The notes under the pieces were generated by a model. The model had not been told where the DNA came from. It saw nothing but the letters and a program-made list of their open reading frames with translations, and did no database searches. A DNA stretch of 64,000 bases from Acidobacteria bacterium 28-9 (GTDB lineage Bacteria > Acidobacteriota > Blastocatellia > Pyrinomonadales > Pyrinomonadaceae), in contig MWYY01000063.1 in NCBI GenBank assembly GCA_002050355.1, positions 1 through 64,000 of the forward strand. Direction: 5' to 3'. Every line of letters begins with the position of its first letter. Position 1 is the first letter of the stretch. This document shows positions 55,990 through 60,909 of this stretch, piece after piece. A program made the position numbers and the translations under genes.

Positions 55990-57999
55990 GTGAATATATC
56001 GCAGTTACAAAAGGTTTTGCGCGAAAAGGTCGTCCAAACCGCGAAAGAAAAGTTTAATGTCGAATTAGGCACGGCGGTCGCCGGCGAAGTTCCGCCGAAA
56101 ACCGAATTGGGCGATTTGGCGTTTCCCGTCGCCTTTGAATTAGCGAAACGAATAAAGCAGCAAACCGGCAAGAAAAAAAATCCGCGCGAGATAGCCGAAA
56201 CTTTACGCGCCGCGCTGGAAACTCAGGATTTTGTCGAGCGCGTTGAAGTCGCGGGCGCGGGCTATTTGAATGTTTTTTACAACCGCGCGAAATTTCTATC
56301 GGAAAGCGTTAGCGCAAACGCATCAGCCGAACAAAATTCTTCGGGAAACGAAACGATTTCAAAAGTTTGCGTCGAACATACATCGGTCAATCCTAACAAA
56401 GCCGCGCATATCGGGCATGTTCGCAATTCGGTTTTGGGCGATACGTTTGTGAGAATTCTGCGCGCTTCGGGCAAGCGTGTCGAAGTCCAAAATTATATTG
56501 ACAACACAGGCGTGCAGGTTGCAGATGTCGTCGTCGGCTTCGTTTATCTTGAAAAAAAGAATCTCGACGATATTAAACAGCTTGACGAAAACTTAAAGGC
56601 TGGAGGAAAAAGTTTTGATTATTACTGTTGGGATTTATACGCGAAGGTCGGCGTTGCATATCAGCAAAACGAAGGATTAAAAACCAAACGCGCTGCAGTT
56701 CTTCATTCGATTGAAGAAGGAAACAACGAAACGGCAATGCTCGCCGATTTTGTCGCCACCCGCAACGTTGAATGTATTTTGAAAACGATGGAACGCCTTT
56801 CGATTCGCTATGATTTATTGCCGAGAGAATCGGAAATTCTGCATCTGCATTTTTGGCAAAAAGCATTTGAAGAAATGAAACGGCGCGACGTTATCAAATA
56901 CGAAATCGAAGGAAAAGCCTCCGGTTGCTGGGTGATGCCGTTTGAATCTCATGCCGGAAACGACGAACACGACGCCGACAAAATCCTCGTCCGCTCAAAT
57001 GGAACGGTTACATACACGGGCAAAGATATCGCCTATCAAATGTGGAAACTCGGACTTTTAGGTTTAGATTTTTATTATAAACTTTTTCGCGAATACGCCG
57101 ACGGCAAAGCGGTTTGGATAACAACGGCGGAAGATTTGCGAAGCGAAAAAGTTCCCGTATTTGGCAGTAACGAAACGGTTTATAACGTGATTGACTCGCG
57201 CCAATCGTATCCGCAGGAAGTTGTCAAAAAAGGCGTCGCCACCATTTTTCCCGAACGAGGCGAAGCAGCGAGCGTTCATCTGAGTTATGAAATGGTTGCG
57301 CTTTCACCAAATGCTGCTGAACAATTGGGTTTCACTCTGAGCGAAGAAGACAAGCAAAAATCTTTTATCGAGATGAGCGGGCGTAAAGGTTTGGGCGTCA
57401 AAGCCGACGATTTGATTGACCGTTTGGAAGCTAACGCGCTCAGGGAAGTCGAAACCAGACACGCCGATTTGTCTATGGAGGAAAAGAAAAAAACTGCGCA
57501 CACGATTGCAATTGGCGCGCTTCGTTATTTTTTATTAAAATTTACACTTACAACCGTTATCGTTTTCGACTTCAAAGAAGCGCTTTCATTTGAAGGCGAA
57601 ACCGGCTGTTTTTGCCAGTATTCGGCGGTTCGCGCCAATTCGATTTTTCGTAAATTAGAAGAAAATGCTTTAGAAAACGCGACTGAAACAATTTCAAATT
57701 CGCAGACGGAAATTCAGGAGCTATTCGCCACTGAAAATGAAGTTTGGTCGCTAATTACGCTGGCTTCACGCCTGGGAGAAACAATTGCACAAGCCGTTAC
57801 CGCAACCGAACCCGCAATTTTAGCGAAATATACTTTCGGTTTGGCAAAGGCGTTCAATCTTTTTTACCACAACCACAAAATCATAACCGAAGAAAATCCG
57901 GTAAAACGCGCGTTGCTGATTGCGACAGCAGATTTAGCGCGCAAAAGTTTAACAAATGCTTTAATGACGCTTGGCATCGAAGTTCCCGAAAGAATGTAG
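55990..57999 (+). CDS. argS: Arginyl-tRNA synthetase
   Basis: This 669-residue class I synthetase charges tRNA-Arg. An N-terminal Add-1 type domain (about 1-105) is followed by the HIGH motif in HTSVNPNKAAHIGHVRNSVLG (read around residues 136-156). The KMSKS position reads EMSGRKGLGVKADDLID near 457, a degenerate form accepted in this enzyme class. The C-terminal anticodon-binding DALR domain has CFCQYSAVRANSIFRKL. It is longer than usual (about 550-580), with extra segments between the motifs. The start is GTG at 55990, with GAGG 10 nt upstream. Confidence 0.94.
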   Translation: MNISQLQKVLREKVVQTAKEKFNVELGTAVAGEVPPKTELGDLAFPVAFELAKRIKQQTGKKKNPREIAETLRAALETQDFVERVEVAGAGYLNVFYNRAKFLSESVSANASAEQNSSGNETISKVCVEHTSVNPNKAAHIGHVRNSVLGDTFVRILRASGKRVEVQNYIDNTGVQVADVVVGFVYLEKKNLDDIKQLDENLKAGGKSFDYYCWDLYAKVGVAYQQNEGLKTKRAAVLHSIEEGNNETAMLADFVATRNVECILKTMERLSIRYDLLPRESEILHLHFWQKAFEEMKRRDVIKYEIEGKASGCWVMPFESHAGNDEHDADKILVRSNGTVTYTGKDIAYQMWKLGLLGLDFYYKLFREYADGKAVWITTAEDLRSEKVPVFGSNETVYNVIDSRQSYPQEVVKKGVATIFPERGEAASVHLSYEMVALSPNAAEQLGFTLSEEDKQKSFIEMSGRKGLGVKADDLIDRLEANALREVETRHADLSMEEKKKTAHTIAIGALRYFLLKFTLTTVIVFDFKEALSFEGETGCFCQYSAVRANSIFRKLEENALENATETISNSQTEIQELFATENEVWSLITLASRLGETIAQAVTATEPAILAKYTFGLAKAFNLFYHNHKIITEENPVKRALLIATADLARKSLTNALMTLGIEVPERM

Positions 58000-58050
58000 A
58001 AACGGATGTTTGATTCTTTTTGTTTGTTCTGTTAAAAATTTGTTTTTGAT

Positions 58051-58134
58051 ATGAGAATTTTAGCGAGAAATTTTACAACCGATTTTCGTTGGCGGCGTTT
58101 AAATAAATCGGCGGCATTAAATTTTTTTAGCTAA
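58051..58134 (+). CDS. Candidate trp leader peptide
   Basis: This 27-codon open frame lies between argS and trpE. It contains one Trp codon (58090-58092) in an RWRR context and five Phe codons. The nine bases 58089-58097 (TTGGCGGCG), which span the Trp codon, can pair with CGCTGCCAA at 58162-58170 (one G-U), the left arm of the hairpin before trpE. A second GGCGGC lies at 58109-58114. A single Trp codon is weak evidence and no clear Shine-Dalgarno precedes the ATG, so this remains a candidate. Confidence 0.35.
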   Translation: MRILARNFTTDFRWRRLNKSAALNFFS

Positions 58135-58163
58135 TTTTTCTTTTATTATTTTCTAACGATTCG

Positions 58164-58200
58164 CTGCCAAATTTGTAGATGATTTGGCAGTTTTCTTTTT
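58164..58200 (+). terminator. Rho-independent terminator directly before trpE (possible attenuator)
   Basis: CTGCCAAAT (58164-58172) pairs perfectly with ATTTGGCAG (58182-58190) around a 9-nt loop, followed by TTTTCTTTTT ending at base 58200. The trpE ATG starts at 58201. It is either the argS terminator or a trp attenuator. Confidence 0.75.
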
Positions 58201-59694
58201 ATGCAAACGATTCAGCCGGAAAATTTTTCCGCCTTCCAACTTCAAGTCGAACGAGGAAACGTCATTCCTGTAACGACAACCATTGCGTCTGATTTGCAGA
58301 CGCCTTTCGGAATTTATCTGCTTTTACGCCAAAATGCGCGTTATGCCTTCTTACTCGAATCAATCGAAGGCGGTGCAAGTCTCGCCCGTTATTCATTTCT
58401 CGGCGCGAACCCGCAAAAAATTATGCGCGGGCGCGGAGGCGAAACTTTTATCGAAGAAAACGGCAAACAAACAATTTCTAAAAAAAATCTGTTGGAAAAT
58501 TTGCGCACTCATTTCGCGGATAAAATTTTTTCCGCCGGTATTGAAAATACTCCACTTTCAGGCGGCGCGGTTGGTTATTTTAATTTTTCGGCAGTCGGAC
58601 TTTTTGAACCGACACTGCAAACCGAAAAGTCAGACGACGGTTTATGGTTATTTTTTCGCACTTTGATCGCCTTTGACCACGCCCGTCAGCAAATTAAAAT
58701 TACAACTCTGGTTTTTACCGTTGATGCCGATAGAGCAGAAGAAACCTATTTAGATGTTGAAAGATTAGAAAGCTTTTATTTGCAAGCTGTTGAAGAAAAT
58801 GAAAAAATGGCGCGCCTTTTTCAAACTACGCCAACCTTTCCTGCTTCACCTCAAAGTAAAAAAACTTCACAAATTACAACCAATTGGGAACGCGAAAATT
58901 TTCTATCTGCCGTCAAGAAAATCAAAAAATATATTCTCGCTGGAGATTGCTATCAAGCGGTTCTTTCGCAGCGTTTTAGTAAGGAAACGACGGCTTCGGC
59001 GGTGGCGATTTATCGCGCGCTTCGCTCGCTCAACCCTTCGCCGTATATGTTTTTATTTGAATTTGAGGAAAAATCAATTATTGGTGCGTCGCCTGAAATG
59101 CTTGTTCGTTGTCGCGGGCAAAAAGTAGAATATCGCCCGATTGCGGGAACGCGGCGGCGCGGAGCAAGCGAAATTGAAGACGATGAACTGGGTGAAGAAA
59201 TGAAACGCGACGAAAAGGAAGTTGCCGAACATCTGATGCTGGTTGATTTAGGGCGCAACGATTTGGGTAAAATCGCTCGCTATGGCTCGGTTAAAGTCGA
59301 GAAATTAATGTCGGTCGAAAAATATTCGCACGTTCAGCATCTCGTGAGCTATTTGTCGGCTGATTTAAAACCCGACAAAGATTGTTTTGACGCGCTGGCG
59401 GCGTGTTTTCCGGCAGGAACGGTTTCCGGCGCGCCGAAAGTTAGGGCAATTCAGATTATCCGCGAACTTGAGCCTGAGACCCGCGGAATTTATGCCGGTG
59501 CGGTTGGTTATGCTGATTACGCCGGAAATCTGGATACTTGTATTACTATTAGAACAATCGTTTTAGAAGACGGTGTGGCATCGGTTCAAGCCGGCGCGGG
59601 TATTGTTGCCGATTCAGTACCGGAAAAAGAATTTCAAGAATCGGTTGATAAAGCCAAAGCCTTATTACGCGCGATTGAAATTGCCGAAAGTTAA
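58201..59694 (+). CDS. trpE: Anthranilate synthase component I
   Basis: This 497-residue enzyme, with a TrpG subunit, converts chorismate to anthranilate, the first step of tryptophan synthesis. The N-terminal part carries LLESIEGGASLARYSFLG, the feedback-site region. The chorismate-binding C-terminal half has QAVLSQRF, YRPIAGTRRRG, LVDLGRNDLGK and CFPAGTVSGAPKVRAIQII. Length is normal (about 490-520). The start at 58201 directly abuts a terminator T-run and has no Shine-Dalgarno. No later Met fits the family, so either initiation is unusual or regulated. The DAHP synthase gene follows. Confidence 0.95.
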   Translation: MQTIQPENFSAFQLQVERGNVIPVTTTIASDLQTPFGIYLLLRQNARYAFLLESIEGGASLARYSFLGANPQKIMRGRGGETFIEENGKQTISKKNLLENLRTHFADKIFSAGIENTPLSGGAVGYFNFSAVGLFEPTLQTEKSDDGLWLFFRTLIAFDHARQQIKITTLVFTVDADRAEETYLDVERLESFYLQAVEENEKMARLFQTTPTFPASPQSKKTSQITTNWERENFLSAVKKIKKYILAGDCYQAVLSQRFSKETTASAVAIYRALRSLNPSPYMFLFEFEEKSIIGASPEMLVRCRGQKVEYRPIAGTRRRGASEIEDDELGEEMKRDEKEVAEHLMLVDLGRNDLGKIARYGSVKVEKLMSVEKYSHVQHLVSYLSADLKPDKDCFDALAACFPAGTVSGAPKVRAIQIIRELEPETRGIYAGAVGYADYAGNLDTCITIRTIVLEDGVASVQAGAGIVADSVPEKEFQESVDKAKALLRAIEIAES

Positions 59695-59853
59695 TTTTAA
59701 GGCAATAAATTTGCTATAGTTTCTGTCGGATATTTTATGATTAAGTATTCCAGCGAGTTTTAACAAAAACCATTTGCATAATGCTTTAAATTCGGCAAAT
59801 TGCCAAAATACTATATTTATACAAAATAATTTTTCAGGTCTTTATAAACAAAT

Positions 59854-60909
59854 ATGTTAATTGTAATGAAAGCAGGCGCGACACAAAAAGATGTCGAGCG
59901 CGTTATTGAAACGATTGAATCTCTGGGGTTTCGTCCGCATTCGATGCCGGGCGCCGGTCGCACCGCAATCGGAATTACCGGAAATCAAGGCTCTGTTGAC
60001 CCGGCGCATTTTGAAAATCTGCCGAGTGTCGCCGACGCGATTCGCGTTACAAAGCCTTACAAACTTATTTCCAAAGATTTGCGTCCCGAAAAATCGATTG
60101 TCAAAGTCGGAAATGCGACAATAGGCGGAGCAGAACTCGCCATTATTGCCGGACCGTGCGCGGTTGAAAACGCCGAACAGGTTTTCTCCGTCGCCAAAGC
60201 GGTTTCAAAAAGCGGTGCAAAATTCTTTCGCGGCGGCGCGTTTAAGCCCAGAACTTCGCCTTATGCTTTTCAGGGAATGGGCGAAGACGGTTTGAAAATT
60301 CTGGCGGACGTGCGCGAACAATTCGGTTTAAATATTGTAACCGAAGCGATGGATGAAGCGGGCGTTGATTTGGTCGAAAAATACGGCGACTGTATTCAAA
60401 TCGGCGCGCGTAATATGCAGAATTTTTCGCTTTTGAAATATGTCGGACAAACCAGAAAACCCGTTTTGCTCAAACGCGGGCTTTCGGCAACGTTAGATGA
60501 ATTTCTGCTTGCCGCCGAATATATTATGGCGGAAGGAAATTACGAAGTGATTTTGTGCGAACGCGGCATTCGCACATTTGCCGCACACGCTCGCAACACA
60601 ATGGATTTATCTATTGTTCCAGCCGTCCAAAGAATGTCGCATTTGCCGATAATCGTTGACCCGTCGCACGGAACCGGAAGAAATTATATGGTTAAACCGA
60701 TGGCTCGCGCCGGTGTTGCCGTGGGCGCCGACGGTCTGATTATTGAAGTCCACCCGCAACCGGAAGAAGCTCTGTGCGACGGCGCGCAAGCCTTAACGCC
60801 AATCCAATATCTGGAACTTGTCAGACAGGTAACAGCGATTTACGAGGCTTTGTCGCTTGCCGAAGAAAATCAAATAGAATTTAACACAAAAGAAGCAATT
60901 GTCGCGTGA
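59854..60909 (+). CDS. aroF: 3-deoxy-7-phosphoheptulonate synthase (type I-beta, ferredoxin-like domain)
   Basis: This 351-residue enzyme condenses phosphoenolpyruvate and erythrose 4-phosphate in the first shikimate-pathway step. The N-terminal ferredoxin-like domain (about 1-70, [19 protein letters not shown]) is the regulatory element of the Thermotoga-type enzyme. The barrel has [44 protein letters not shown], the metal His/Cys positions in CERGIRTF and the VDPSHGTGR segment. It lies 159 nt after trpE on the same strand, linking the entry and the Trp branch of aromatic amino acid synthesis. No confident promoter was found in the gap. Confidence 0.94.

Follow-up and report, generated by a model that had tools for sequence, protein, structure and literature searches.

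In this study, a window of 64 kb (the whole stretch of DNA analyzed, part of a 3.65-Mb draft genome) was compared with the genomes of its relatives, and the results suggested that the region in front of trpE is very probably a classical ribosome-mediated transcription attenuator of this gene. Judging from the sequences, all elements of such a switch are in place and conserved in 32 genomes, the leader frames carry an excess of Trp codons, and the pairing of regions 2 and 3 (2:3) has survived in lineages where its sequence changed. The proposal of an earlier note, that a leader-peptide attenuator lies upstream of trpE, was right in kind on account of this conservation, this codon excess and the turnover of the 2:3 pairing.

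We searched 119 related genomes of one family, presumably Pyrinomonadaceae, and compared the sequence in front of trpE from 60 family members besides the window and then from 40 more places of the family and its class. A promoter, a short frame with one to four Trp codons, and a GC hairpin followed by a T-run were found before trpE in 32 genomes of the family, the window included; these genomes are related to each other, so the z-scores given below are not independent. The earlier note had named relatives that keep the terminator without the Trp frame or the alternative pairing as a result that would speak against it, and the opposite was seen: all 32 keep both the Trp frame and the terminator, and 2:3 survives turnover in some lineages. 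The upstream neighbor argS (arginine–tRNA ligase, 55990–57999, + strand, above the NCBIfam argS cut-off) adjoins trpE directly in 31 of the family genomes, window counted, and is considered to lie outside the switch. The 32nd unit belongs to the nearest relative, G011, whose TrpE is 76% identical. In its locus (L003, about 3801–3201, - strand of the locus), an extra gene, apparently for a Uma2-type nuclease, has come between argS and the promoter, leader, and terminator, which remain attached to trpE. When the window was compared with G011, the best-kept blocks included the terminator, the second GGCGGC, and a stretch of 15 bases surrounding the Trp codon. In addition, six further genomes of the largest genus (G054, G056, G057, G066, G068, and G082) showed a Trp-rich frame upstream of trpE, and a match to argS was not found there.

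In a TrpE tree of 32 sequences, the nine sampled carriers formed one clade with support of 100/99, which corresponds to one change on the tree, and the window and G011 were sister to the other seven carriers. Among the genomes sampled, neither the family's genera other than g1, g3, and g22 nor the other families of the class had such a unit upstream of trpE. Within the window's own genus, G013 (L111) encodes a TrpE that is 54% identical to that of the window, with neither the leader nor argS found upstream; this is possibly a replaced or different trpE.

The gene predicted to be controlled, trpE (anthranilate synthase component I, 58201–59694, + strand), scored 505 bits with NCBIfam trpE_most, just below the cut-off of 518 bits, and its product is about 50% identical to the TrpE of named Acidobacteria records, being related to them yet distinct. 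The ATG start codon at 58201 stands directly 3′ of the T-run and is backed by the alignment with G011. No clear Shine-Dalgarno sequence precedes it, which the earlier note had found odd; such a lack is ordinary here, with a 4-base motif at just 11 of 41 long ATG ORFs of the window and a 5-base motif at 3 of the 41. Between trpE and the gene for DAHP synthase, which follows at 59854, lies a tiny frame, MIKYSSEF (59737–59763, + strand), with promoter-like sequence upstream; no T-run terminator was seen, and the frame is probably due to chance.

The predicted trpL-like leader peptide, MRILARNFTTDFRWRRLNKSAALNFFS, is encoded at 58051–58134 (+ strand) by 27 codons plus a stop, and short Trp-containing frames occupy the same place in 31 other genomes. 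Its predicted regulatory Trp codon, present at 58090–58092 (+ strand) just as had been claimed, is the single one in the window and aligns with the lone Trp codon of G011. Taken alone, a frame with one Trp codon lies within chance both in the window (p 0.14 for a gap of that size) and in G011 (p 0.40), and the significance of the window's frame therefore comes from the relatives rather than from the window itself. Altogether 76 Trp codons were counted over the 32 units, vs. 13.1 ± 3.4 when these gaps were dinucleotide-shuffled (the highest of 300 shuffles reached 24) and 2 on the reverse strand. The frames span 22–38 codons, and 29 of the 32 leaders have 2–4 Trp codons: two in 15 leaders, three in 13, and four in one, with examples such as WHWAWSW (G052), WWW (G070 and G073), and WGWW (G045). 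The remaining three have one, the window and the otherwise regular unit of G053 among them, so that the weak point conceded in the earlier note, a single Trp codon, is a real one and the window copy is the weakest kind in the series of 32.

Differences between the leaders of the window and G011 numbered 11, 8, and 9 of 27 at the three codon positions, without position bias; such equal divergence indicates that the frame and the Trp codon were held while the peptide was not conserved. In 28 of the 32 leaders, the base directly after the last Trp codon is a C. We considered sensing of arginine as well, given the RWRR beside argS, and rejected it: the residue after the last Trp is Arg in 14 of 32 leaders but Gln or His, whose codons also start with C, in 15. 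The constraint after the last UGG thus looks like one on a C, that is, on RNA pairing, rather than on Arg.

Over the 32 genomes, a predicted promoter was found upstream of the short Trp-codon frame before trpE, and translation of the leader is predicted. In the window the predicted leader promoter covers 58010–58038 (+ strand), with TTGATT at 58010–58015 as -35, a 17-nt spacer and TAAAAA at 58033–58038 as -10; it was recognized by a consensus search and by its position, conserved in 32 genomes. This promoter-like pair is located at the argS end, and an exact TTGACA stands at the -35 place in 27 of 32 genomes. The distance from the end of the -10 to the leader start codon is 7–8 nt in 24 of the 32 genomes and 12 nt in the window, where transcription would be expected to start at about 58045, giving a 5′ UTR of only about 5 nt. 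The leader would be leaderless or nearly so if transcription begins at the usual distance. Leaderless genes have been predicted at 10–19% in three acidobacterial genomes (PMC3160421).

Downstream of the start codon, a hairpin over the regulatory codon was recovered by minimum-energy folding. In the window, this 1:2 hairpin (58079–58111, + strand) joins CCGATTT (58079–58085) with AAATCGG (58105–58111) and holds the Trp codon in its loop; it is weak in the window itself (z -0.7), and over the 32 units the leader folds had a mean z of -2.2 relative to shuffles, with the Trp codons inside the 1:2 hairpin in most. Region 2, the predicted antiterminator strand CGGCGGC (58109–58115, + strand), starts 19 nt downstream of the first base of the Trp codon and can pair with 58163–58168 at -12.5 kcal/mol. 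Its partner, region 3 (58163–58172, + strand), is the left arm of the terminator and is common to the antiterminator and the terminator. The search for region 2 began at +11, the assumed edge of a stalled ribosome, and in 30 of 32 units region 2 starts at most 22 nt from the start of the last Trp codon, just past that edge. The earlier note had offered a second GGCGGC copy at 58109–58114 as an alternative partner of the left arm; the copy lies one base later, at 58110–58115, and its role needs upgrading, as region 2 is the conserved antiterminator.

Complementarity of region 2 to the left arm had a mean z of -1.6 vs. shuffled spacers. A GGCGGC-like segment pairs with a GCCGCC-like one in most genomes, and the sequences have changed in two: G003 has GATGGTGT paired with ACACCATC, and G007 has GCATTGGTG paired with CACCGATG. 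For the arms of G003, G007, and G081, no spacer from another genome matched as well as the genome's own; over all arms, the own spacer ranked at 0.33 vs. 0.5 if unrelated, a comparison of little power as many arms are alike. An antiterminator that is incompatible with the terminator and begins right past the stalled ribosome was found in the window and in these three genomes, and the turnover of the 2:3 sequence with the pairing kept is the best evidence that 2:3 is selected. Among the 32 units, the 2:3 antiterminator was unconvincing in G011, G046, G050, G059, and G070.

The intrinsic terminator of the window (58164–58200, + strand) lies between the leader and the structural gene, as do equivalent terminators in the relatives. 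It consists of CTGCCAAAT (58164–58172), a 9-nt loop, ATTTGGCAG (58182–58190) and then TTTTCTTTTT (58191–58200); the description in the earlier note, a perfect 9-bp hairpin with a T-run up to the trpE ATG, was borne out, the T-run ending at 58200. A scan of both strands for at least nine perfect pairs and at least seven T in the next 10 found it to be the sole site of its strength in the 64 kb, and none at the same threshold was found in eight shuffles of the + strand; the terminator is beyond chance. By this strict scan, strong intrinsic terminators are almost absent from the window as a whole, with one in 64 kb. For the 32 units, 31 terminators came from the scan and that of G049 (L119) was assigned by hand; its hairpin upstream of trpE is followed by TTATTATTTTTT instead of a pure T-run, which is why the automatic scan missed it. 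From the stem end to the trpE start codon there are 5–20 nt in 18 of 29 scorable genomes, 9 nt by that count in the window, and 30–49 nt in the rest. A terminator right at the start codon, emphasized earlier, is hence common in the clade and is not required.

Taken together, these elements would work as follows. Transcription from the promoter just past argS would begin at the leader start codon or a few bases upstream of it, and a ribosome would start the 27-codon leader as the RNA emerges. With charged tRNA-Trp in short supply, the ribosome would stall at the Trp codon and cover region 1, and 1:2 would stay open; region 2 could then pair with 58163–58168 before the right arm is made, resulting in read-through into trpE. 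With ample Trp, the ribosome would reach the stop codon, 1:2 would close, the terminator would form and transcription would stop just before the trpE start. The transcription start, the stalling of the ribosome, the coupled timing and the response to tryptophan are steps that we infer. For a window transcript that still lacks the right arm, the calculated probability of upstream pairing of the left arm was 0.78 with the ribosome stalled vs. 0.08 with the ribosome at the stop codon, the latter value being low in part from less free RNA, so that the difference is partly trivial. Equilibrium folding of stalled vs. released states did not separate them: the terminator won in nearly all cases, and in every state in the window, and the truncated transcript alone distinguished the states. 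Antitermination must therefore be kinetic.

The hairpin might instead be merely the transcription terminator of argS, the small frame a chance ORF and the trpE promoter located elsewhere, a possibility that the earlier note had allowed. In favor of this, argS precedes the hairpin in 31 genomes, and a lone Trp codon would be unremarkable in a single genome. However, the unit of G011 stays beside trpE though the inserted gene separates it from argS, and the six further genomes have their Trp-rich frame before trpE with argS not found upstream; the strong enrichment of Trp codons across the whole set and the mere 10 or so bases from stem to trpE, no space for a downstream promoter, make this explanation extremely improbable. 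It is less far-fetched, yet still unlikely, that the window copy is a decayed attenuator, with too few Trp codons in the G000/G011 lineage for useful sensing and a terminator that sets a constant level of trpE. The single Trp codon in both the window and G011 agrees with such decay, as does the weak 2:3 pairing of G011 (-6.3 kcal/mol, z 0.2), but the good 2:3 pairing of the window, the placement of the Trp-codon region, second GGCGGC and terminator among the best-conserved blocks of the two, and the regular unit around the equally lone Trp codon of G053 argue against it.

A different antiterminator had also been proposed, in which the stretch across the Trp codon binds the terminator's left arm and keeps the terminator from forming. 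The pairing exists in the window, where TTGGCGGCG (58089–58097) can pair with CGCTGCCAA (58162–58170) in 9 pairs including one G-U (-15.9 kcal/mol, z -2.6); z is about -3 in the G061 group too, and the C after the last Trp codon in most leaders is consistent with it. It does not hold as the conserved antiterminator: a stalled ribosome would block the pairing, not release it, which gives the wrong regulatory sign, and it is weak (-6 kcal/mol) in G007 and G003, where region 2 still pairs. We consider it very unlikely as the antiterminator, and it could matter for untranslated leaders. The attenuator based on 2:3 is thus the reading adopted here, and one extension of it may be mentioned, although it is quite unlikely: the hairpin might control trpE twice, by ending transcription and, in read-through transcripts, by blocking the ribosome about 10 nt before a start codon that lacks a Shine-Dalgarno sequence. 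If so, the T-run would be the whole free 5′ region of trpE, the leader would be translated as a leaderless mRNA, and one tRNA-Trp signal would gate both transcription and translation.

Comparison with known systems showed no match in the window at the gathering score for any family of Rfam 15, Trp_leader and T-box included, and nothing meaningful in the window and six relatives at loose thresholds. Our literature searches found no published example of leader-peptide (trp) attenuation in Acidobacteriota; a whole clade of one acidobacterial family would carry a complete trp attenuator with a leader frame predicted to be leaderless, and the series from one to four Trp codons provides natural variants in which to ask how many control codons are needed for a working switch. 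In the trp attenuators of Corynebacterium and Streptomyces, UGG codons likewise occur in the leader peptides, and the antiterminator and terminator contain a three-way complementary GC motif (PMC1262725), comparable to GGCGGC-GCYGCC-GGCRGC here, but these attenuators belong to another phylum, differ in sequence and have double or triple UGG codons where the window has one. The E. coli trp leader combines a short frame containing regulatory Trp codons with alternative hairpins 1:2, 2:3, and 3:4 and an intrinsic terminator before trpE (PMC1183508). The window unit is like E. coli trpL (Rfam Trp_leader) in its leader frame with Trp, its three alternative hairpins and its terminator before trpE, and unlike it in that the leader start codon is predicted at or near the transcript 5′ end, about 10 nt separate the terminator from the start codon of trpE, and the leader is longer (27 codons) with only one Trp codon. 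In Sinorhizobium meliloti, trpL/rnTrpL precedes trpE(G), the leader ATG is the transcript 5′ end, and the peptide has 14 residues (PMC7298713). The peptides here are longer (22–38), and the 5′ end, about 5 nt before the ATG in the window, is predicted from the promoter only; both systems nevertheless appear to place a single trp gene under attenuation by a leader whose ATG lies at the 5′ end of the transcript.
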